Source: Roseobacter sp. SK209-2-6 | GTDB taxonomy: Bacteria > Pseudomonadota > Alphaproteobacteria > Rhodobacterales > Rhodobacteraceae | DNA length: 64,000 nt | Assembly: GCF_000169455.1 (NCBI RefSeq) | Contig: NZ_AAYC01000002.1 | Coordinates: 1-64,000 of the forward strand | Direction of reading: 5' to 3' | Part shown: piece by piece, positions 24,368 through 38,746 of the stretch | Position numbering within the stretch: the first letter of the stretch is position 1 | Layout: the number at the start of each line of letters is the position of its first letter | Position numbers and translations under genes: made by a program | Notes under the pieces: model-generated | What the model saw: only the letters and a program-made list of their open reading frames with translations | The model's database searches: none | What the model was told of the DNA's origin: nothing

Positions 24368-24442
24368 TCCGGCGTAGCTCAGCGGTAGAGCAGTTGACTG
24401 TTAATCAATTGGTCGTAGGTTCGATCCCTACCGCCGGAGCCA
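24368..24442 (+). tRNA. tRNA-Asn (GTT), first copy
   Basis: A 75-nt cloverleaf with 7-bp acceptor stem TCCGGCG/CGCCGGA, anticodon loop CTGTTAA (GTT), T-loop GTTCGATCC and encoded CCA. It is identical to the copy at 38672-38746. Confidence 0.97.
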
Positions 24443-25358: not shown

Positions 25359-26231
25359 ATGAACTTCCAACACCTTCGATTTGCTATTTCCGTCGCCGAA
25401 ACAGGTTCGTTCACACGAGCGGCTGATATTTGCTGCGTGACACAACCTGCGCTCTCAAACGCGATTGGACAGTTAGAAGAAGAACTTGGAGGTCGCCTAT
25501 TTGATCGCACAACGCGTTCGGTCACAACGACGGAGTTTGGAGCCGTGATGGTCGATAAGATGCGCGACGTCGTTTCCGCGCGTCAAAGCCTTCTAAGCAG
25601 CGCGTCAGACTTTCTTGCCCGTCATGACAACGTCGTTCGGATCGGTCTATCCCCATTGGTCAGTGTGGATTTCTCAAGGGCAATGCTTGCGCGCGCCACA
25701 CAGCATGATTTGGAGCTGGTGTTGACGGAAATGAATAAGGCCGACATTTACCCAGCGCTTCAAAGCGGAACAATTGATTTTGGGCTCTGCCCATCACCGC
25801 AAGTCAGCACAAATCTCCGGTCTACAAAGATCTACTCGGAACCTTTGTTCGTAGTTTCGGATCAATTGAACGCGCATGAATTTGATTCATTTCCCTTAAC
25901 AGACCTTGCCGATAGGAAAATACTGCTAGTTCCTGATGATTGCGGCTTGTCTGATACCGTGCGATTTCTGTTCCAAAATCAGAAACTGAAATTGCATGCC
26001 TATGAGGGGCGCGCTCTGGCCTATCATGTTTTGGAGCACTGGGCTCATTTAGGCATTGGCACTACCATTCTCCCTGCATCTCAGGTGACAAAACCTGAAT
26101 TTGCCTGCCCTCTCGGGGCCACGGTAGATAACATTGTCTCGATCAAATTCGAGGCACATTGGATGGCCAGCCAAGAGCAACGAACGAGCTTCAACACTAT
26201 TATGTCTTGCCTGGGTGTGCCGACCGGGTGA
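25359..26231 (+). CDS. LysR-family transcriptional regulator
   Basis: 290 residues: winged HTH in the first 60 (SFTRAADICCVTQPALSNAIGQLEEELGG), then a two-lobed ligand domain. The first part resembles OxyR-like members. Codon use and composition are AT-richer than the surrounding core genes. It is divergent from the small exported protein and is its likely regulator. The effector is unknown. Confidence 0.9.
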   Translation: MNFQHLRFAISVAETGSFTRAADICCVTQPALSNAIGQLEEELGGRLFDRTTRSVTTTEFGAVMVDKMRDVVSARQSLLSSASDFLARHDNVVRIGLSPLVSVDFSRAMLARATQHDLELVLTEMNKADIYPALQSGTIDFGLCPSPQVSTNLRSTKIYSEPLFVVSDQLNAHEFDSFPLTDLADRKILLVPDDCGLSDTVRFLFQNQKLKLHAYEGRALAYHVLEHWAHLGIGTTILPASQVTKPEFACPLGATVDNIVSIKFEAHWMASQEQRTSFNTIMSCLGVPTG

Positions 26232-26388: not shown

Positions 26389-27315
26389 TCATGGGTTTTT
26401 TCCACGAACCGGCCCCCCAGCGTTTTTCACAAGCTGGATAAAGGTTTTCACCACCAGGTTTGGCTCTTCACCGCGTTTGCGCACCAGCTTGATTTCGGAC
26501 TTCAGGTCGAACATGCCATCACCCACCGAGCGCATCTTTCCCTCGCGCATCCAGATCGCGGCAAAGCTTTCCGGCAGATACCCGATGTAGCCTCCGGTTA
26601 GCACCAGCATGGCAATGCCCTCGATCTGATGGGCGCTGGCGTTCGAGGGTAGCCCGCGGGACACCGGGGCCACCAGATCCTCGTTCAGATAGGCGCGCTT
26701 GCAGAAGTTGGCCTGGGGCAGCAGCGTTTCGACCTCTGCCGGCGTGTCTGCCTTGAACAGCGGATGACCGGGGCTGCAGTAAAGCCCGATGCGCTCGAAC
26801 CCCAGGGTTTCATAAATCAGGCCGGGCTTGTGCTTGTGGAACACCCCGACCCCGATAGCGATCTGACCGTCCTGCACCGCCATTTCGATGTCATCCGGTG
26901 CCAGGGAGTGCATTTCGATTGCCACCTCGGGCGCGATCCGGGTGAATTCGCTCAAGGCCCCCATAACCGGGGCTTCATTGTTGAAAACCCAATTGTCGAT
27001 CGCAGCAACCGTCAGGCGCCCTACCAGCTTGCCGCGGGTGCCGTCTACGGTTTCGCCGAACTGATCCAGCGCGGCAAACAGTTTGTGCGAGGCGGCATAG
27101 ACGATCTCGCCCTTGTCGGTCAGCCGGAATCCTTTGCGGCCGCGTTGGCACAGGCGCATGCCCAGGCGGGTTTCTAGATCGGCAATCTGCCGCGAGATGG
27201 TAGAGGCCGAGACATTTAGGGCGATTTGTGCCGCCGAAAACCCGCGCGCCTCGACTACGGCGCAGAAGACATACAGTAGGTGCAAATCGGCTTTGGACAG
27301 GGCAGGGGGCAGCAT
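26389..27315 (-). CDS. LysR-family regulator of the guanidino-compound cluster
   Basis: 308 residues with the LysR HTH at about 12-70 (FSAAQIALNVSASTISRQIADLETRLGM) and a typical effector domain. It is transcribed divergently from the deiminase/carbamoylase/transporter operon, with a 117-bp AT-rich control region between. LysR regulators usually control the divergent operon, so it is the likely inducer-responsive activator of that system. The effector would be the imported compound or a product, by inference. Confidence 0.92.
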   Translation of the reverse strand: MLPPALSKADLHLLYVFCAVVEARGFSAAQIALNVSASTISRQIADLETRLGMRLCQRGRKGFRLTDKGEIVYAASHKLFAALDQFGETVDGTRGKLVGRLTVAAIDNWVFNNEAPVMGALSEFTRIAPEVAIEMHSLAPDDIEMAVQDGQIAIGVGVFHKHKPGLIYETLGFERIGLYCSPGHPLFKADTPAEVETLLPQANFCKRAYLNEDLVAPVSRGLPSNASAHQIEGIAMLVLTGGYIGYLPESFAAIWMREGKMRSVGDGMFDLKSEIKLVRKRGEEPNLVVKTFIQLVKNAGGPVRGKNP

Positions 27316-27333
27316 GGGGCCACCATACTTGCA

Positions 27334-27347
27334 AACTTATAAAAGTT
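27334..27347. promoter_or_regulatory. Possible LysR operator
   Basis: AACTT-ATAA-AAGTT is a perfect inverted repeat in the AT-rich gap between the LysR gene and its divergent operon. It lies 18 bp from the LysR start and 85 bp from the deiminase start. Confidence 0.4.
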
Positions 27348-27432
27348 AAATCCCTTAGTTTGTAATTTAATAAAAGCTAGTTCCGTCCGATCCTGCCGCC
27401 CAAGCATGTATTGACTGGGAAGGTTGGGCAGC

Positions 27433-28353
27433 ATGGACGCAAGCACCGCAACGGCCAAGCGCTGGGGGATCAACAACGACTATGCCAAGCTGACGGATGT
27501 TCTGCTGGGCAAGCCGGAGTATTTCAAATGGGTTGAAGCCGGCCCGCTGATCGGACGCACCCTGGCCAATGCCCATAAGACCGGCGTGCAGTTCGACCTG
27601 CAGCTGGCGATGAAACAGCACTCTGAGATGGTCTCGATCTACGAGGGGGCCGGTGTTACCTGCCACTATCTGGACAGCGACGAGGTGCTGCACCGCAACT
27701 TCTTTGCCCGTGATAGCTCAGCGATGACGCCCTGGGGCGCCTTGATCTGCCATATGCAGCTGAAATGCCGCCGGGCGGATTATGCCACCGCGATCAAATT
27801 CTATCAGGACAACGATATTCCGATCTGGAAATTTGCCACCGCGGGCCATTTTGAGGGCGGTGATTTCAACATCATCGAGCCGGGCCGGGTGTTGATTGGC
27901 TATTGCGGCGAGCGGTCCGAGAAAGAGGGCTCGGAACAGGTGGCGGAATTTGTCCGCGCCGAAGGCTGGGAGGCCGTGGTGGCGCCGATTAGCCGCGAGT
28001 TTGTGCATATGGACGGGCTGATCGTGCCGCTGGCCGAAAAGCTGGCGGTTGCTTGTATCGACGCGATGGAGCCTTGGCTGGTGGATATTGTCAAAGGCTG
28101 GGGGATCGAGATCGTCAATGTTTCCTATGCTGAGGCCAAGAATCTGGGCGTGAATCTTGTGGCCTTGGGCGATGGCGAGGTGCTGTCGATGGCCGGCGCC
28201 AAAGATCTGAATGCCAAGATGCGGGCGCTGGGGTTTGAGGTTTTTGATCCCGATATGTCTATGTTCACCCTGGGCGGCGGCGGCGTGCATTGCCTGAGCC
28301 AGGCCCTCTGCCGGGAAGACACGGGCCGCCAAGACGCCCCCCAAAGCACATGA
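27433..28353 (+). CDS. Deiminase/amidinotransferase-fold hydrolase (DDAH/arginine deiminase superfamily)
   Basis: 306 residues with the pentein-fold catalytic set: Arg93-Asp94 (FARDSS), Glu141-Gly-Gly-Asp144 (HFEGGDF), His192 (FVHMDG) and Cys287 (GGGGVHCLSQ). Family enzymes attack the guanidinium carbon through the cysteine, turning a guanidino group into a ureido group or transferring the amidine. ATG at 27433 is chosen over an upstream TTG because GGGAAGG precedes it. Its stop overlaps the next ATG, coupling it to an M20 carbamoylase, the natural next step on a ureido product. The exact substrate (a guanidino acid, or a methylated arginine) is not readable. Confidence 0.88.
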   Translation: MDASTATAKRWGINNDYAKLTDVLLGKPEYFKWVEAGPLIGRTLANAHKTGVQFDLQLAMKQHSEMVSIYEGAGVTCHYLDSDEVLHRNFFARDSSAMTPWGALICHMQLKCRRADYATAIKFYQDNDIPIWKFATAGHFEGGDFNIIEPGRVLIGYCGERSEKEGSEQVAEFVRAEGWEAVVAPISREFVHMDGLIVPLAEKLAVACIDAMEPWLVDIVKGWGIEIVNVSYAEAKNLGVNLVALGDGEVLSMAGAKDLNAKMRALGFEVFDPDMSMFTLGGGGVHCLSQALCREDTGRQDAPQST

Positions 28354-29591
28354 GCAGCAACCAGTGCATAAACGGCGCCCGGCTGTGGCAGAGCATCATG
28401 GAAATGGCCAAGATCGATGCCTTGCCGGGGGGCGGCTGTGGGCGGCTGACGCTGACGGATGGCGATCTGGAAGCCCGTGCGCTTTTCAACCGCTGGTGCG
28501 AGGACGCGGGCTGCACGGTAACCTATGACCGGCTGGGCAACATGTTTGCCCGCCGCGAAGGCCGCGAACTAGATGCGCTGCCGATTGCCATCGGCAGTCA
28601 TCTGGACACCCAGCCGCACGGCGGCAAGTTCGATGGTGTCTATGGCGTGCTAGCGGGCCTCGAGGTGGTACGCACCCTGAACGATTTGGGGCTGGAGACC
28701 GATGCCCCCATCGAAATCGTCAACTGGACCAACGAGGAAGGCGCGCGCTTTGCGCCTGCGATGCTGTGTTCCGGGGTCTATGCCGGGCTGTTTGATCTGG
28801 AATTTGCCCTCAGCCGCGAAGACGCCGACGGCAAGCGGTTCGGCGATGAGCTGGCACGGATAGGCTATGCCGGGTCTGAGCCCTGCGGTGCGCATCGGTT
28901 CGGCGCCTTCCTGGAGGCTCATATTGAACAAGGCCCGGTGCTGGAACGCCATGATGAGGTGATTGGCGTTGTCACCGGCGGCCAGGGCCAGCGATGGTAT
29001 GATGTCACTGTCACCGGGCGCGATGCCCATTCCGGTTCCACTCCGATGCCGGGGCGCCGCGACGCGCTGGTCTCCGCGGCGCGTATGATCCAGGAGGTGC
29101 AGCGGATTGCCCTGGCCTATGGCCCCGACGGGGTCGGCACCGTGGGTGCGCTGCAGGTCAGCCCCAATTCGCGCAACACCATCCCCGGCGAGGTGCGGTT
29201 CACCATCGACTTCCGCCACCCCGACGACGCGCTGCTGAGCGGCATGGACAACGCCATCCGCCGCGCTGCCCTCGAGGAGCAGGAGGCCTGGGTCGCGCTG
29301 GATATGATCTGGCACAATCCGCCGGTGAAATTTGACGAGGTTTGCATCGACGCAATCGAAACGGCGGCCAAGGACATCGGTCAGCCCTGGCGCCGGATGG
29401 TGTCCGGTGCGGGCCATGACGCCTGCCAGCTGGCGCGCAAGGTGCCCGCGGCGATGGTGTTTGTACCCTGCCGCGATGGCCTCAGCCACAACGAGGGTGA
29501 ATGGGCCGAACCGGATCATCTGGAGGCCGGCTGCAATGTGCTGCTGCAGGCTGCTCTTACTCTTTCAAAACAAATGGCACCGGTAACGTGA
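28350..29591 (+). CDS. M20 Zn-dependent N-carbamoyl amidohydrolase (second copy)
   Basis: A 413-residue paralogue of the gene at 1037-2287 with the same metal motifs (GSHLDTQP, TNEEGARF, HIEQGP, SGAGHDA, LSHNE) and clear similarity throughout. The ATG overlaps the deiminase stop (ATGA). In this setting it should remove the carbamoyl group from the ureido acid made by the deiminase, giving a free amino compound, CO2 and ammonia. This pairing is inference from adjacency and known family chemistry. An allantoate-type substrate is less likely here. Confidence 0.88.
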   Translation: MSSNQCINGARLWQSIMEMAKIDALPGGGCGRLTLTDGDLEARALFNRWCEDAGCTVTYDRLGNMFARREGRELDALPIAIGSHLDTQPHGGKFDGVYGVLAGLEVVRTLNDLGLETDAPIEIVNWTNEEGARFAPAMLCSGVYAGLFDLEFALSREDADGKRFGDELARIGYAGSEPCGAHRFGAFLEAHIEQGPVLERHDEVIGVVTGGQGQRWYDVTVTGRDAHSGSTPMPGRRDALVSAARMIQEVQRIALAYGPDGVGTVGALQVSPNSRNTIPGEVRFTIDFRHPDDALLSGMDNAIRRAALEEQEAWVALDMIWHNPPVKFDEVCIDAIETAAKDIGQPWRRMVSGAGHDACQLARKVPAAMVFVPCRDGLSHNEGEWAEPDHLEAGCNVLLQAALTLSKQMAPVT

Positions 29592-29649
29592 TCACGCGCC
29601 GGGTGCTGAAACAAAAAACAAAGTGATCAGCCAACAAGGGAGAAGAAAT

Positions 29650-30600
29650 ATGACAACAGCAAAGACTTTGGCCGCCGCCGCACTGGCCGCCACTCTCGGC
29701 AGCACTGCCATGGCGCAGGACGTGGTGATCGGGGTGCCGAACTGGGCCTCGGTCCGCGGCACCGCTCATATCCTGAAAGTGGCGCTGGAAGACAACCTGG
29801 GCCTGTCAGTAGGACTGCAGAACGGCACCAACCCGATCATCTTTGAGGCGATGGATTCTGGTGCTATGCATGTGCACCCGGAGGTTTGGTTGCCGAACCA
29901 GCAAAACCTGCATGACACCTTTGTCACCGGTAAGGGCTCGGTTGCCCTGAACCCAAATGCGGTTCTTTCCGATCAGCATATTTGCGTCACCAAGGATACG
30001 CAGGAACGCACGGGTATTTCGGCGCTTAGCGATCTGACCGACCCGGATATGGCGGCCAACTTCGACACCGATGGCGACGGGCGTGGCGAGGTTTGGATCG
30101 GCGGGGCAGGCTGGGCCTCGACCAATGTCGAGAAGATCCGCGCCAAATCCTATGGCTACTCCGAGACCATGAACCTGATGGAGATGGATGAGACCCTGGC
30201 GCTGGCCCAGGTCGACAATGCCGTGGCGCAGGGGCAGAACATCGTTTTCTACTGCTACACGCCGCACCATATGTTCTCGCTTTACGATCTGGTGCCGCTG
30301 TCCGAGCCTGCCTATGACGCCGCCGAATGGGATGTGAAACAGCCCACGGATGACCCGAACTGGCTGGAGAATTCCAAGGCCGGCACCGCCTGGGACGCAG
30401 CCAAGTTGCATGTCTTCTACGCCTCCGGCCTGGCCGAGAGCCAGCCAGAAGCGGCTGCCATGCTGGGCAAGGTCGCGCTGACCACCGAGCAGGTCAATGC
30501 AGTGGTCTATGCCCTGTCGGTTGATGGACAAGATCCCGCGGAGTTTGCCCGCAAGTGGGTGGATGAACATTCCGATCTGGTCGACTCCTGGTTCCAGTAA
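29650..30600 (+). CDS. ABC transporter solute-binding protein, glycine betaine/proline (ProX/OpuAC) family
   Basis: 316 residues with a signal peptide ending AMA-QD. The mature protein begins VVIGVPNWASVRGTAHIL, typical of OpuAC-type binding proteins, which hold cations in an aromatic cage. Tryptophans and tyrosines in PNW, PEVW, GAGW and FYCYTPHH may form such a cage. A calcium-loop-like DTDGDGRGE is present. The ATG at 29650 follows AAGGGAGAAG. With guanidino-cleaving enzymes on both sides, a planar guanidinium cation is a more likely ligand than betaine itself. Confidence 0.9.
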   Translation: MTTAKTLAAAALAATLGSTAMAQDVVIGVPNWASVRGTAHILKVALEDNLGLSVGLQNGTNPIIFEAMDSGAMHVHPEVWLPNQQNLHDTFVTGKGSVALNPNAVLSDQHICVTKDTQERTGISALSDLTDPDMAANFDTDGDGRGEVWIGGAGWASTNVEKIRAKSYGYSETMNLMEMDETLALAQVDNAVAQGQNIVFYCYTPHHMFSLYDLVPLSEPAYDAAEWDVKQPTDDPNWLENSKAGTAWDAAKLHVFYASGLAESQPEAAAMLGKVALTTEQVNAVVYALSVDGQDPAEFARKWVDEHSDLVDSWFQ

Positions 30601-30624
30601 ACAGCGGAGCAACAGGCGCCATCC

Positions 30625-30649
30625 GGCGGGCGACGTGCAGCTGCCCGCC
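30625..30649 (+). other. Intergenic hairpin after the solute-binding gene
   Basis: GGCGGGC and GCCCGCC pair across an 11-base loop between the binding-protein and ATPase genes. No T-run follows. Such hairpins often stabilise the upstream message, giving more binding protein than ATPase. Confidence 0.5.
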
Positions 30650-30678
30650 ACAGACACCGGGACAACCGGAGACGGAAG

Positions 30679-31728
30679 ATGACTGAGCATGTGATCACGC
30701 TGGACGGCGTGTGGAAGATATTCGGTGCCAACTCAGGCGCTGCGATGGAGGCAATCCGCAAGCGCGGGTTGGGCAAGGCTGAGGTGCTGGAAGAATTCAA
30801 CTGCGTGGTCGGTATTGCCGATGTGTCCTTTGAGGTGAAGCGCGGCGAGATTTTCTGCGTGATGGGGCTGTCGGGCTCTGGTAAATCCACCATGGTGCGG
30901 CATCTGAACCGGCTGATTGAGCCGACCACCGGGAACATCTCGGTGATGGGCCGCGACATGCTGACCCTGTCGGACGCCGACCTGCGCGAGATGCGGGCGA
31001 TGAATATCGGCATGGTGTTCCAGCACATGGCGCTGCTGCCCCACCGCACCGTGCGCGACAATGTGGGCTTTCCGCTGCAGGTGCGCGGCGAGCCGAAATC
31101 CACCCGCTGGGAAGTCTCGCAGCGCTGCCTGGACAAGGTGAACCTGACGGGATTTGAGGACCGGTTTCCAGCAGAGCTGTCAGGCGGCATGCAGCAGCGG
31201 GTCGGGCTGGCGCGTGCGCTCGCCTCGGATCCGGATGTGCTGCTGATGGATGAGCCGTTTTCGGCGCTGGATCCGCTGATCCGGAGGCAATTGCAGGATC
31301 AGTTCATGAAGCTCTCGGCCGAGCTGAACAAGACCACCGTTTTCATCACCCACGACCTGGACGAGGCGATCCGCATCGGCAACCGCATCGCCATCATGAA
31401 GGACGGCCGCATTGTGCAGATCGGCACGCCGGAGGAGATCGTGACGCAGCCTGCCGACGATTATGTGCGCGACTTTGTCGAGGGTATTTCCAAGCTGAAA
31501 CTGGTCTTTGCCCATTCGATCATGGTGCCGATCAGCGAATACCAGCCCACCCGGCCCGTCGATTTCGACGAAAGCCCGCGGGCGCATCACGGCACCGATC
31601 TGGATCAGCTGATCGACATCGCCACCTCCACTGAAAACGTGATTGTCATCACCGGTGACGATGGCACCGATATCGGCGTGGTTGACCGCGCGACGTTGCT
31701 GAAAGGCATTCAGGGAGGCAAGGCATGA
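30679..31728 (+). CDS. ABC transporter ATPase, ProV/OpuAA type
   Basis: A 349-residue ATPase of the quaternary-amine transporter class: Walker A LSGSGKST, signature LSGGMQQRVGLARAL, Walker B LLMDEPFSALDP. The C-terminal extension ends in a short CBS-like segment (VIVITGDDGTDIGVVDRATLLKGI), the osmo/ionic-strength or regulatory module of this family, here probably only one CBS unit. The stop overlaps the permease start. Confidence 0.92.
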   Translation: MTEHVITLDGVWKIFGANSGAAMEAIRKRGLGKAEVLEEFNCVVGIADVSFEVKRGEIFCVMGLSGSGKSTMVRHLNRLIEPTTGNISVMGRDMLTLSDADLREMRAMNIGMVFQHMALLPHRTVRDNVGFPLQVRGEPKSTRWEVSQRCLDKVNLTGFEDRFPAELSGGMQQRVGLARALASDPDVLLMDEPFSALDPLIRRQLQDQFMKLSAELNKTTVFITHDLDEAIRIGNRIAIMKDGRIVQIGTPEEIVTQPADDYVRDFVEGISKLKLVFAHSIMVPISEYQPTRPVDFDESPRAHHGTDLDQLIDIATSTENVIVITGDDGTDIGVVDRATLLKGIQGGKA

Positions 31729-33284
31729 AGGATACGGCTTACCAATCCCCTGATCTGAGTGTTGAAGAATTTGCTGTTGAGAACGGCAGCTACTACGCTC
31801 ACGAATTTGCCCGCATCCAGGGCAAGACCGGCTTTTCCTGGTCGTGGAACACCATGGCTGCGGTCTGCGGCCCTTTGTGGGGTGCTGCCCGCGGTGCCTG
31901 GGGGTTCTTCTGGATGTTTCTGGTGCTGGAGCTGTTTGCTCTGGTGCAGATCGGCCGGGGCCTGTGGGGCGAACTTGGTGCGGATCAGCTTGCCCGCTAT
32001 GAGCGGCTCTTGTCCAATATCGCCAAGCGCGAGGCGCAGGCGGCAGACCTGACCGCCGCAGGCGATGCCGCCGGGGCCGCCGCCAAGCTGAAGATCGCCG
32101 ACAACTTGCGTGCGGCTGCTGATAAGGCGCTGGAGGCTGCCACTGCCGCCAACAGCACCGCAGTCGCCATTCTGCTGACCGGTCTTGCCCTGATGGCGGC
32201 GATCAAACTGGCCGAGGGTTTTTATGCCAACACCGCCTATGAGGCGCAGTATCTGCGCTGGCGCTCGGGCCAGAAGGCGCAGTCGGGGATGAGCCGCAAC
32301 GGGCTGATTTTTGGCGCCATAGGCCTCTTGGCGATCTGGCCGCTGACCCTGGTGCGTTTTACCGTTGCCAAACCTGACGAGGCCCTGGCCAATGTCACAG
32401 GCGGGCTGCTGGGAGGACGGCTGCCGATCACCGAATTCCCCGTCGGCAAAGAATACTTCGCCGCACTGTCTAAGAAAGGCGATGCCGGGTTTGACTGGCT
32501 GGCCAACAACTTTGGCGATGTCTTCGACGGGGTCACTGTCGGCATCCGCTGGGTACTGGACGGGCTTGAGGTGCTGTTGATCCAGACTCCTTGGCCGGTG
32601 GTGATGTTTGTGACTGTTGTTATGGCGCTGCGCCTGGCCGGGCCGCGTGTGGCGATCTTTACCGCAGCCTCTCTTGCCTATCTTGCCTTCATGGGCCTGT
32701 GGGAACTGGCGATGATCACTGTGGCGCTGATCGGGGCAGGGGCCTTCCTCTGTGTGGCGATCGGCATTCCGCTGGGAATCTGGTTTGGCAAGTCCAAACG
32801 CGCCTATGCGATTGCAGAACCGGTGCTGGACTTCATGCAGACCATGCCGGCCTTTGTCTATCTGATCCCGATCATTGCCTTTTTCGGCACCGGCAAGCCG
32901 CCTGGGGTGCTGGCCACGCTGGTCTTTGCGATGCCACCGGTGATCCGCCTGACTGCCCTTGGCATGCGCGGTGTGCCCGAGGCCACCAAGGAAGCCGCCG
33001 TGGCATTCGGCTGCTCACGCCGTCAGCTCTTGTTCAACGTCGAGCTGCCCTTGGCGCTACCCTCGATCATGACCGGCATCAACCAGACCATCCTAATGTC
33101 GCTGTCGATGGTGGTGATCGCCTCGTTGATCGGTGCTGAAGGCCTGGGTGCGCTGATCCTGGAAGCGCTGCAATACGCGGCCAAAGGCCAGGGTCTGCTG
33201 GGCGGTCTCGCCATCCTGTTCTGCGCCATGGTCATCGACCGGATCGCACAGGGTGCATACCGCCAGAAAACCGGTGGGCACTGA
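31725..33284 (+). CDS. ABC transporter permease, ProW type with long N-terminal domain
   Basis: 519 residues, against roughly 280-350 for ordinary ProW proteins. The C-terminal 230 residues are the permease core, with the EAA loop EAAVAFGCSRRQLLFNVELP. The N-terminal 250 residues add about three membrane segments and an alanine-rich helical stretch (about 95-140). ATG at 31725 overlaps the ATPase stop (ATGA). Some marine bacterial betaine/TMAO transporters also have enlarged permeases, so this may be a lineage trait rather than a fusion peculiar to this locus. Confidence 0.9.
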   Translation: MKDTAYQSPDLSVEEFAVENGSYYAHEFARIQGKTGFSWSWNTMAAVCGPLWGAARGAWGFFWMFLVLELFALVQIGRGLWGELGADQLARYERLLSNIAKREAQAADLTAAGDAAGAAAKLKIADNLRAAADKALEAATAANSTAVAILLTGLALMAAIKLAEGFYANTAYEAQYLRWRSGQKAQSGMSRNGLIFGAIGLLAIWPLTLVRFTVAKPDEALANVTGGLLGGRLPITEFPVGKEYFAALSKKGDAGFDWLANNFGDVFDGVTVGIRWVLDGLEVLLIQTPWPVVMFVTVVMALRLAGPRVAIFTAASLAYLAFMGLWELAMITVALIGAGAFLCVAIGIPLGIWFGKSKRAYAIAEPVLDFMQTMPAFVYLIPIIAFFGTGKPPGVLATLVFAMPPVIRLTALGMRGVPEATKEAAVAFGCSRRQLLFNVELPLALPSIMTGINQTILMSLSMVVIASLIGAEGLGALILEALQYAAKGQGLLGGLAILFCAMVIDRIAQGAYRQKTGGH

Positions 33285-33303
33285 CTGACACTCCCTCTGA
33301 CTG

Positions 33304-33340
33304 CCCCGGCGTGCACACCCTGGCGCCGGGGGCCTTTTAT
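33304..33340 (+). terminator. Internal terminator-like hairpin before the ureohydrolase genes
   Basis: CCCCGGCG and CGCCGGGG form a perfect 8-bp stem with a 12-base loop, then GCCTTTTAT. It lies in the 78-bp gap between permease and ureohydrolase genes and may separate or attenuate the two parts of the cluster. Confidence 0.6.
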
Positions 33341-33362
33341 AGACAAGACCGAAAGGCTGAAA

Positions 33363-34352
33363 ATGGCTGACGAACATCTGAAATCCATGATGGAGAACCT
33401 TTACTGGTGGGGCATTCCCACCATGTTCCGCTGCCCCAACGAAGGGCCGGAAAACCAAGATATCGCTCTGGTGGGTGTGCCCCATTCAACTGGCAACGGC
33501 ACCACCGAGCGCGACCAGCACCTGGGCCCTCGCGCGCTGCGCAATGTCTCTGCTGTGGGCCGGCGGATGCATGGCGAATTCCAACTGAATCCCTGGGAGG
33601 CTGCCAAAATTGTAGATGTCGGCGACGTGCCTTTCCCGCGCGCCAATGACAATGAGGACTGCATCGAGCAAATCACCCGATTCTATCAAGAGATCGACGC
33701 GGCCGGCGCCCGCCCTGTGTCCATCGGCGGCGACCACTCGATCACCGGCGGCATCGTGCAGGCCTTGGGCTGCGGCAAGATCACCAAGCGCGAGCCGGTC
33801 TGCTTTTTGCATTTTGATGCCCACACGGATGTCTTCACCAAGGTTGACCACTTCCTGGGTGCCAAAAAATCCGCCGCCCATTGGGGCGCCTACCTGGCGG
33901 ACCAAGGCAAGGTCGACCCGCATCATTCCATGCAGATCGGTATCCGTGGCCATGCCCGCACCCTAGACTGGCTGGAGCCCTCTTATGACTATGGCTACAA
34001 CGTTGTCACCATGAAGGAGTTCCGCAAACGCGGGGTCGAGGATGTGGTGGCCCAGATCAAGGAGGTGATGGCGGGAAGGCCTGTTTACATCACTTTTGAC
34101 CTCGACAGTCTGGACCCGACGATTGCACCGGCGGTGTCCAATCTGGAGCCGGGCGAAAAGGGGTTTGACATCGACGAAGCGGTTGCCCTGCTGCATGCCG
34201 TGCGCGGCATGAATATTGTTGGCGGAGATATTGTCTGCATGATGCCGACCAAGGACAGCCCCAACCAGATCACCGCGCTGACCGCCTCGGCGATCATGTT
34301 CGAGATGATCTCGATGATTGCGGAAAACGTGAAAAACGGAGCAACGGCATGA
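33363..34352 (+). CDS. Ureohydrolase (agmatinase/arginase family), divergent specificity loop
   Basis: 329 residues. The binuclear manganese/nickel ligands are all present: His125 (GGDHS), Asp152, His154, Asp156 (FDAHTD), Asp246 and Asp248 (FDLDSLDP). Family enzymes hydrolyse a guanidino group to amine plus urea. After the last metal motif the usual APGTGTPE-type loop is replaced by APAVSNLEPGEKGF (255-268), implying a substrate other than agmatine. It is followed by a second ureohydrolase whose start overlaps its stop. Guanidinobutyrate, guanidinopropionate, taurocyamine or free guanidine are candidates. Confidence 0.9.
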   Translation: MADEHLKSMMENLYWWGIPTMFRCPNEGPENQDIALVGVPHSTGNGTTERDQHLGPRALRNVSAVGRRMHGEFQLNPWEAAKIVDVGDVPFPRANDNEDCIEQITRFYQEIDAAGARPVSIGGDHSITGGIVQALGCGKITKREPVCFLHFDAHTDVFTKVDHFLGAKKSAAHWGAYLADQGKVDPHHSMQIGIRGHARTLDWLEPSYDYGYNVVTMKEFRKRGVEDVVAQIKEVMAGRPVYITFDLDSLDPTIAPAVSNLEPGEKGFDIDEAVALLHAVRGMNIVGGDIVCMMPTKDSPNQITALTASAIMFEMISMIAENVKNGATA

Positions 34353-35341
34353 CCCAGACAGGTGATGATTTCTTTCAACCGGTATCCGCCATGGATCTGC
34401 CGCGGTTTGCAGGCGTGCCTACCTTCATGCGACTGCCGTCGCTGACGCCGGATCATCCGCGCTATGGCGAGGTGCAGATGGGGCTGGTGGGCGTGCCCTG
34501 GGACGGCGGCACCACCAACCGCCCCGGAGCGCGGCACGGGCCCCGCCAGCTGCGCGATTTCTCCACCATGATCCGGGCGATGAACCCGGTGACGGGCGTG
34601 AACCCTTTCACTAGCGTCAACTGTGCCGATCTGGGCGATGTGCCGCCCAATCCGGTGGACATCCAGGACTGCCTGGAGCGGATCACCGCCTATTATGCCG
34701 ACCTCAAGGCTGCGGGCATCACCCCGATGACCGCAGGCGGCGATCATCTGATCTCCCTGCCGATCCTGCGTGCCTTAGCGGCGGACGGTCCGTTGGGGCT
34801 GGTGCAATTCGACAGCCACACCGACCTCTTCGACAGCTATTTCGGCGGCTATAAATACACCCACGGCACGCCATTCCGCCGCGCGGTGGAGGAAGGGCTG
34901 GTCGACCCCAAACGCTTTGTCCAGGTTGGCATCCGTGGCACCGCCTATAACACCAAAGACATCGAATGGGGCCTGGAGCAGGGCATCCGCATCATCCGCA
35001 TCGAAGAGCTGTTTGATCGCGGTATCAAGGATGTGATGGAAGAGGTGCGCGGTATCTTGGGCAGCCGGCCGGCCTACTGCACCTATGATATTGATTTTGT
35101 TGATCCCACTTACGCGCCCGGCACCGGCACGCCGGAAATCGGCGGTCCCAACAGCTTTCAGGCACAGCAGGTGATCCGCGAGCTGGCGGGCGTCAACCTG
35201 ATCGGCGCCGATCTGGTCGAAGTGGCGCCGCCCTTTGACGAGTCTGGAAGCACCGCATGGCTAGGCATTTCGCTGATGTTCGAACTTATGTGCGTGCTCT
35301 CTCAGGCGATGGGCCGACAAACGGGTGGCGTCCAGAGTTAA
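34349..35341 (+). CDS. Ureohydrolase (agmatinase family), canonical
   Basis: 330 residues with all metal ligands: His133 (GGDHL), Asp155, His157, Asp159 (FDSHTD) and Asp-x-Asp in YDIDFVDP. The specificity loop APGTGTPEIGG is of the standard agmatinase/guanidinobutyrase type. ATG overlaps the stop of the first ureohydrolase, so the two are co-translated and may even form a heteromer. It ends the transporter/deiminase/ureohydrolase cluster. Confidence 0.92.
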   Translation: MTQTGDDFFQPVSAMDLPRFAGVPTFMRLPSLTPDHPRYGEVQMGLVGVPWDGGTTNRPGARHGPRQLRDFSTMIRAMNPVTGVNPFTSVNCADLGDVPPNPVDIQDCLERITAYYADLKAAGITPMTAGGDHLISLPILRALAADGPLGLVQFDSHTDLFDSYFGGYKYTHGTPFRRAVEEGLVDPKRFVQVGIRGTAYNTKDIEWGLEQGIRIIRIEELFDRGIKDVMEEVRGILGSRPAYCTYDIDFVDPTYAPGTGTPEIGGPNSFQAQQVIRELAGVNLIGADLVEVAPPFDESGSTAWLGISLMFELMCVLSQAMGRQTGGVQS

Positions 35342-35681: not shown

Positions 35682-36137
35682 TTAGGCCCAAACCAGTTTT
35701 TGACCGCTCAAACATCCAGCAATGGAATCTTCTGGCAGCTGGCCCGTTTGCTCAAAAGCAGAGAAGAGGTTTAGCAGGCTACGTAAGCCGGTAATCTTCC
35801 CCCCTTCGATCAGAAACAAGACCGTGCCTTGCACCTTCAGGGGCTGCTCAACATCAGGTCGGGGCGCCAGGAGGTTGAAACAGCAACAGATCCAATCTCC
35901 TTCCTCTAGGAACATATCGATTTCCACCTTCGGAGGCCCCATCATTCCATGCAGCACTTCGACGAGAATCGGGATATCTTCCGGCGATTTGACCACCGAT
36001 CCATCTAGGGCTTCAGGGCTGAAATTCGCCGCCATCAACTCTTCAATGGCTGCCAAATTCCCCTTTTCCCAGATCTCTGAAAACCAGAGCCGAACAATTT
36101 CGCGCTTGTCCTTTGGCGTCTGCGGCGTCTTCGCCAT
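35682..36137 (-). CDS. NTF2-like (SnoaL-type) protein
   Basis: About 151 residues from ATG 36137 (GTG at 36149 would add four). The N-terminal helix VRLWFSEIWEKGNLAAIEELMA followed by curved-sheet strands and IEGGKITGLRSL is the pattern of SnoaL-like NTF2-fold proteins. These bind small molecules or act as isomerases/cyclases. No catalytic pair can be assigned and there is no operon partner. Function unknown. Confidence 0.7.
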   Translation of the reverse strand: MAKTPQTPKDKREIVRLWFSEIWEKGNLAAIEELMAANFSPEALDGSVVKSPEDIPILVEVLHGMMGPPKVEIDMFLEEGDWICCCFNLLAPRPDVEQPLKVQGTVLFLIEGGKITGLRSLLNLFSAFEQTGQLPEDSIAGCLSGQKLVWA

Positions 36138-36259
36138 TCTGTTCACCACTTCAATTCAAAACAGCTCATAGGAGCAGGTCCCGATCCACACGCTGGCTCA
36201 CCGTCAGGCATGCTCAACGCGATACAGTTTTCGGGTCTTTTGGACACAGAAGTCCGCAC

Positions 36260-38671: not shown

Positions 38672-38746
38672 TCCGGCGTAGCTCAGCGGTAGAGCAGTTG
38701 ACTGTTAATCAATTGGTCGTAGGTTCGATCCCTACCGCCGGAGCCA
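38672..38746 (+). tRNA. tRNA-Asn (GTT), second copy
   Basis: A 75-nt gene identical to the one at 24368-24442, with encoded CCA and its own promoter and terminator. Confidence 0.97.

Follow-up and report, generated by a model that had tools for sequence, protein, structure and literature searches.

The window analyzed here, 64,000 nucleotides of Roseobacter sp. SK209-2-6 (contig NZ_AAYC01000002.1, positions 1 to 64,000), carries at 26389-35341 a divergent LysR-type regulator followed by genes for a predicted pentein-fold guanidino deiminase (PENT), an M20 carbamoylase, a betaine-type ABC importer (binding protein SBP, an ATPase and a permease) and two ureohydrolase-fold proteins, URE1 and URE2. 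We suggest, leaning somewhat towards the idea, that this is a LysR-controlled cassette with which marine bacteria scavenge nitrogen from acid-headed guanidino compounds. This class-level reading rests on gene content, collinearity in varied contexts, co-occurrence and active-site residues, from which we infer every substrate. A previous sequence-only reading had listed the eight consecutive genes and proposed a system for importing and degrading guanidino compounds; the sequence supports a single transcription unit that would take up and hydrolyse acids of the guanidino type. All eight are open frames at the positions given, with families matched by Pfam; of the several ATGA overlaps that it noted, three are seen, at the PENT/M20, ATPase/permease and URE1/URE2 junctions; and judging by this layout the eight genes are packed as a transcription unit. 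That pathway logic is sound in outline, and what is new is the altered active site of URE1, the co-occurrence of URE1 with the pentein and the link between the importer and URE1. In the scheme that we propose, the importer would take up a zwitterion. URE2 would split a guanidino acid of short, linear form into urea and an amino acid, as its residues and relatives suggest, and PENT would convert an unsubstituted guanidino acid to a ureido acid, from which the M20 enzyme would take off the carbamoyl group. URE1 would act on a compound with an acid head, hydrolysing a group that the usual Glu does not hold.

URE1 (33363-34352, + strand; PF00491, 213 bits) has its six metal ligands (H125, D152, H154, D156, D246 and D248) in the window and in 52/52 other sequences. 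Arg67 is invariant and aligns with R72 of GbuA in the mapping to 3nip and 3nio, and His173 falls on the shuttle His in the HMMER alignment, the MAFFT alignment being shifted there. However, the guanidinium-binding Glu is replaced by Cys292 in 53/53 sequences, window included; the same position in 53 other PF00491 sequences is Glu in 52 and a gap in one (URE2 of the window, also Glu, is uncounted). The alignment was confined to non-identical sequences that cover at least 85% of the query and align over more than 230 residues. Since the metal site and Arg67 are kept while the Glu has become Cys292, URE1 is, on the evidence of these residues, a separate subfamily, whose substrate would keep an acid head and would not be held as a normal guanidinium. 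The two ureohydrolases had previously been treated alike, which the Cys in URE1 does not support. In E. coli agmatinase, the E274A change left 1-2% of the activity and raised the KM (PMC8125230; this and the other papers cited are represented here by parts of their text). A homologue on a Rhodococcus plasmid, 53% identical to URE1, has the same Cys, but Asn for the His, and metformin hydrolase has N199 at the corresponding His (PMC11271267). Metformin hydrolase, MetCaCb, is likewise encoded by two adjoining PF00491 genes. In MetCb five of the six metal ligands are changed (PMC11271267), whereas URE1 and URE2 both keep all six; there is no nickel-chaperone gene among the cassette's eight, and URE1 is found without URE2 at loci L088, L095 and L110. 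A heteromeric URE1/URE2 pair of the metformin-hydrolase kind was therefore set aside.

URE1 tends to occur where the pentein does. When 50 of the genomes of the 80 pentein loci were searched, URE1 was found in 37, all of which also matched at 1e-100. It lies inside the fetched locus in 11 of the 50; of the 39 remaining, 26 have it at another place. The background, each count of which includes the window's own genome, was 21/295 genomes of the family (1e-100), 4/398 of the phylum (1e-90) and 12/385 of the class (1e-85). A Fisher test of 26/39 against 21/295 gives p ~1e-16, which is indicative only, the genomes being related and partly of other families. In a first sample of 198 genomes, less that of the window, URE1 was present in 5/6 genomes with a pentein orthologue (p ~1e-6), a figure which assumes that the later family sample contains this one.

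The make-up of the loci themselves varies. Among 86 pentein loci (L035-L040 and L055-L134, six being second copies of the same contigs and many cut by contig ends), relatives were found of the ATPase in 31, SBP in 31, the permease in 29, LysR in 27, URE1 in 17, URE2 in 13 (five of them only ~45% identical) and M20 in 10. The importer adjoins URE1 in 7/18 URE1 loci from the family and phylum samples. Twenty more URE1 loci were taken from pentein genomes; the importer adjoins URE1 in 10 of the 18 that were anchored, L240 and L243 having given no anchor, probably through ORF selection, though both carry URE1. Importer plus URE1 is thus the commonest core, seen in about half of the URE1 loci, and the pentein, M20 and URE2 are variably present. 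No M20 gene stands between PENT and SBP in L056, L058, L088 and L095, and M20 is dispensable in the cassette.

These distributions bear on a different activity for URE1, that of a ureido-acid hydrolase, which would split the neutral pentein product into amine and carbamate and so replace M20 where it is absent; the Cys would hydrogen-bond the ureido carbonyl, and a Glu would not. Such a role would suit an enzyme that occurs in genomes along with the pentein, lies directly beside it in L065, and keeps the acid-head Arg but not the cation-binding Glu, and M20 is indeed missing from many pentein loci. However, URE1 accompanies the importer in genomes lacking a pentein match (L161 and L164), and the operon of Ruegeria pomeroyi has no pentein. 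URE1 also coexists with M20 in the window, and 49/50 pentein genomes contain some M20 relative, so that a carbamoylase is rarely lacking. We regard a ureido-acid hydrolase as unlikely.

The genes of the proposed guanidino cassette also stay together in differing surroundings. Eight loci, chosen because they were already known to carry cassette genes, were compared with the window by blastn. Seven match ~26.43-35.31 kb (8.9 kb) in one collinear block, and the eighth, L056, lacks M20 only. The rest of the window yielded only short pieces of 64-78% identity, several of them falling onto cassette genes themselves, and, judged by eye, L055, L056, L057 and L062 have different genes around the cassette. 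Because seven of the eight chosen loci are collinear over the whole 8.9 kb while the flanks differ, the gene set behaves as a cassette, and it is probably mobile and exchanged between marine bacteria. The full set is also found on a plasmid of Alisedimentitalea scapharcae. Carriers from the pentein scan include Leisingera, Ruegeria, Roseovarius and other Rhodobacteraceae, Granulosicoccaceae, Hyphomicrobiales and Kiloniellaceae, some of bryozoan or mollusc source, going by titles. The megaplasmid of R. pomeroyi DSS-3 has the order LysR-SBP-ATPase-permease-URE1-URE2, with 70, 84 and 74% identity to the window for SBP, URE1 and URE2, respectively.

Four congeners have retained the flanking histidine kinase, a hydrolase gene and tRNA-Asn at the syntenic site, where none of the cassette genes passed the filter within the 12-18 kb that were fetched. 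Two tRNA-Asn(GTT) genes of identical sequence and orientation (24368-24442 and 38672-38746) flank the cassette-bearing segment of the window, and a tRNA-Met lies on the kinase side of the site in two of the four congeners. We considered a mobile island on the strength of this arrangement, in which the two tRNA-Asn copies of the window are no more than candidate integration sites.

PENT (27433-28353, + strand) belongs to the arginine deiminase superfamily (PF02274, 60 bits, cut-off 22.8). Its catalytic residues D97, E144, H195, D197 and C290 and its carboxylate-binding R116 and R164 (numbered from the TTG at 27424) align with D166, E224, H278, D280, C406, R185 and R243 of 1rxx/2aci, residues whose roles in arginine deiminase are established, and the seven are invariant in 98 sequences. 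PENT thus has the catalytic residues and both Args of arginine deiminase (ArcA), a pentein-fold enzyme like ArgZ, DDAH and the amidinotransferases, but at ~300 residues it scores far under the NCBIfam cut-offs for arginine deiminase arcA (TIGR01078, 50 against 489 bits), for DDAH (best 59 against 340) and for ArgZ. It passes the Pfam model DDAH_eukar (54 over 23), as the fold would predict. After the catalytic His, PENT reads HMD, as opposed to HLK in the DDAH structures 3rhy and 1h70. Methylated arginines had been put forward as candidate substrates; for the pentein this is unlikely, and dimethylarginine was set aside, given the arginine deiminase-type HxD motif and the low DDAH scores. The motif and the two Args therefore point to a substrate with an unsubstituted guanidinium and an acid head. 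An AlphaFold model of medium confidence (mean pLDDT 76.5) matches the folds of NnhA, ADI, DDAH, AGAT and ArgZ. Transferase activity would be compatible with this fold, and the adjoining carbamoylase gene favours a deiminase. A paralogous pentein, 45-48% identical, lies between pheS-like and pheT-like genes (by eye) in three Rhodobacteraceae genomes (L043, L045 and L047).

The M20 gene (28350-29591, + strand) encodes a member of the hydantoinase/carbamoylase/allantoate amidohydrolase subfamily (TIGR01879, 410 bits, cut-off 204; NF006769, 624 bits, cut-off 452). M20 adjoins the pentein both in the Ruegeria-type cassettes and in Roseovarius (L077, L080 and L083), there with a different, peptide-type binding protein (named by eye), which speaks for the deiminase and carbamoylase as a pair; the two-step route suggested earlier is possible and agrees with these sequences. 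In the AguA/AguB agmatine deiminase pathway, a pentein deiminase is followed by a nitrilase-type carbamoylase, and the substrate is an amine. The cassette likewise pairs a pentein deiminase with a carbamoylase, but this is of the M20 type and the substrate would be an acid. Elsewhere in the window, ~1055-1746 has 64-67% DNA identity to M20 from several of the cassette loci and probably belongs to a second M20-type gene.

URE2 (34349-35341, + strand; PF00491) is a predicted guanidino-acid hydrolase of the GpuA/GbuA type. Its best PDB match is the 3-guanidinopropionase GpuA (3nip, 397 bits). Glu291 and His172 are present in 17/17 sequences of at least 60% identity, window included, and the six metal ligands in 35/35 of at least 40%. 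Arg76, kept in 17/17, aligns, counting by hand, with R72 of 3nio (GbuA), which comes from the neighbouring subunit, caps the active site and could meet the acid group (PMC9772407). URE2 belongs to the same fold family as GpuA, GbuA and human GDAH (AGMAT) and has their metal ligands, proton-shuttle His, guanidinium Glu and acid-binding Arg; unlike them, it is encoded in one cassette together with a deiminase and a betaine-type importer. URE1 has the metal site and the Arg in common with the same enzymes and differs by its Cys. Against the agmatinase model TIGR01230 (cut-off 174.3), URE2 scores 176.6 and URE1 131.4. The human homologue hydrolyses taurocyamine and guanidinobutyrate, and an Arg variant also guanidinopropionate (PMC9772407). 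These residues and the GpuA match lend weight to the one-step hydrolysis proposed before, and linear guanidino acids such as 3-guanidinopropionate, 4-guanidinobutyrate and taurocyamine would suit URE2. Taurocyamine was also considered from TauD neighbours, which occur at only 3/115 loci, one of them (L094) exceeding the NCBIfam taurine-dioxygenase cut-off, and is kept as a weak lead for URE2.

The importer comprises SBP (29650-30600; PF04069, aligned to OpuAC, OpuA and ProX), a ProV/ChoV-type ATPase (30679-31728; TIGR01186, 344.9 bits, cut-off 326.6) and a permease with a long N-terminal extension (31725-33284; PF00528 at residues 347-507), all on the + strand. More than 240 residues precede the matched region of the permease, membrane-like and coiled-coil-like by eye, and the orthologous frames are similar in length. 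The ProX-like aromatic cage claimed for SBP stands in part: the cage residues are W41, W89 and Y212 (numbered from the GTG at 29623), so that two Trp are kept and the third position is Tyr. The motif HPEVW is invariant in 19 sequences, except that the His is near-invariant. A fold search with a medium-confidence AlphaFold model (mean pLDDT 75.5, falling below 50 over model residues 39-74, where one of the cage Trp lies) gave TmoX (4xz6) as the best match, then OpuAC, ProX, ChoX and DmpX. SBP shares fold and aromatic residues with TmoX, DmpX, ProX and OpuA, and the ATPase is of the ProV type, but SBP has the Tyr, low sequence similarity and a linkage to ureohydrolase-fold genes.

It could be that an ordinary osmolyte importer, for glycine betaine, proline or trimethylamine N-oxide (TMAO), lies beside arginine-catabolism genes by chance. 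The family names fit this, as does a table in PMC9038784 that places SPOA0231 under proline. We infer that SPOA0231 is the R. pomeroyi SBP because PMC10030565 gives this OpuAC protein an identity of ~70% to one that KLH11 encodes near dddD, in agreement with 69% at the KLH11 locus (L062). In the parts of PMC10030565 cited here, recombinant SPOA0231 did not bind DMSP by isothermal titration calorimetry (ITC), a further difference from the known importers. Moreover, the importer-URE1 order recurs in many loci, and SBP falls under the ProX and choline-binding equivalog cut-offs (79 against 215 and 72 against 379). Chance placement of an osmolyte importer seems to us rather improbable. In KLH11, an 830-residue CoA-transferase-like frame (L062, 18387-20876) follows the cassette and is probably the dddD mentioned in PMC10030565. 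At L160 and L253, which are the same place, a CuyA D-cysteate sulfo-lyase gene (482 bits, cut-off 450) has a second SBP/ATPase/permease set next to it (37, 59 and 40% identical, respectively), so that the importer family may also serve sulfonated amino acids.

Another way to account for a betaine-type importer is a substrate that is itself a betaine with a guanidino far end, for example arginine betaine, whose quaternary amine the cage would bind, MttB-type enzymes demethylating it and the hydrolases acting on the guanidino end. MttB- and DMGDH-like genes are indeed neighbours in some relatives. However, MttB is not in the window cassette, the two carboxylate Args of the pentein fit a plain amino or guanidino acid, and we know of no abundant natural guanidino betaine. 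We consider such a substrate very improbable.

For URE1 itself, we rank creatine, which would yield sarcosine and urea, first and a ureido acid second because of clues from neighbouring genes; even the first choice is doubtful. Neighbours were counted within 7 kb of URE1 or PENT at 115 loci longer than 9 kb (some genomes twice). They comprise MttB-like (13), DMGDH-like (8), LLM mono-oxygenase (5), TauD (3), CuyA (3), DegT (2) and DoeA-like (2) genes, and none of these seven families was seen in 18 control loci; each query gene came from one counted locus, and the controls are a small set of a different kind. One MttB clade (at least 54% identity) is represented at 10 loci from 9 genomes, counting that of the query, and the DMGDH-like label is our reading of a DAO + GCV_T protein. 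Creatine is linked to sarcosine, through which DMGDH- and MttB-type genes would tie in. The Rhodococcus URE1 homologue adjoins a creatininase-family gene (PF02633, 154 bits, over cut-off), and its other neighbours are a cytosine-permease-like gene, an FAD oxidoreductase and an isochorismatase-fold hydrolase. Creatine is reportedly common in sponges (PMC11525543).

Three further leads from neighbouring genes were rejected. The sulfoacetaldehyde acetyltransferase of L100 (399 to 414 bits) is under its cut-offs and the DoeA-like protein of L237 just under that of ectoine hydrolase (574 against 613 bits). For an arginine-transaminase pathway (AruH/AruI) in L250, the aminotransferase falls short of every listed cut-off, and the TPP enzyme exceeds only that of an acetolactate-synthase model.

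Several observations weigh against a guanidino cassette and against creatine in particular. The MttB and DMGDH-like proteins pass Pfam and fall under NCBIfam equivalog cut-offs, as does the Rhodococcus creatininase-like protein (180 against 235), and the Rhodococcus region also holds aromatic-ring dioxygenase genes. Elsewhere, URE1 stands alone or beside a kynureninase (L310; 265 bits, cut-off 246), a CN-hydrolase (L312) or a histone-deacetylase-family gene (L162). The Glu-to-Cys change should weaken binding of any guanidinium, creatine included, and human GDAH hydrolyses neither creatine nor guanidinoacetate in the passages cited from PMC9772407. The structures closest to SBP in fold contain TMAO, glycine betaine, choline or DMSP rather than guanidines. 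The direct importer-URE1 link is limited to the fractions of anchored loci given above, and in the first family sample 5/12 URE1 genomes had no pentein match at 1e-20. The histone-deacetylase-family gene, another arginase-fold amidohydrolase, lies beside URE1 in L162, where it was assigned by PF00850, and in L170, where it was assigned by eye.

The remaining features concern the ends of the cassette. The LysR-type regulator (26389-27315, - strand; PF00126/PF03466) is separated from PENT by 27316-27432, in which aligned upstream regions of orthologous loci show a partly conserved, AT-rich block, a possible LysR operator. The starts that we prefer are the ATG at 27433 over the TTG at 27424 for PENT, 28350 for M20 and 29650 for SBP. 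A second LysR-type gene (25359-26231, + strand) lies just upstream, outside the collinear block. On the 3' side there is a SnoaL-like gene (35682-36149, - strand), and another is found in the URE1 neighbourhood of L310.

The sequence-only reading knew of no described pathway with this set. Our searches of an open-access library, which lacks most subscription papers, likewise gave no description of it, although the R. pomeroyi importer relative is in print (PMC10030565). The main text of a mutant-library paper (PMC10130141), so far as represented here, gave no match for SPOA02, creatine or guanid. URE1 has the PF00491 fold, not the M24 fold of creatinase. Tentatively, then, URE1 may represent a reaction new to the ureohydrolase fold: it would be a creatine amidinohydrolase with no relation to M24 creatinase, or else it would hydrolyse ureido acids. 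The cassette may then be specialized in importing and degrading creatine, or a different guanidino osmolyte, in bacteria of the sea and of invertebrates.

Guanidino compounds, among them phosphagens and guanidino acids, are nitrogen-rich metabolites of animals and plankton, and to our knowledge their uptake by bacteria in the sea is poorly assigned. Nitrogen scavenging is probably the role of the cassette, and the finding offers an orphan importer, an enzyme subfamily marked by a diagnostic exchange in its active site, and R. pomeroyi DSS-3 as a tractable host that carries the importer, URE1 and URE2.

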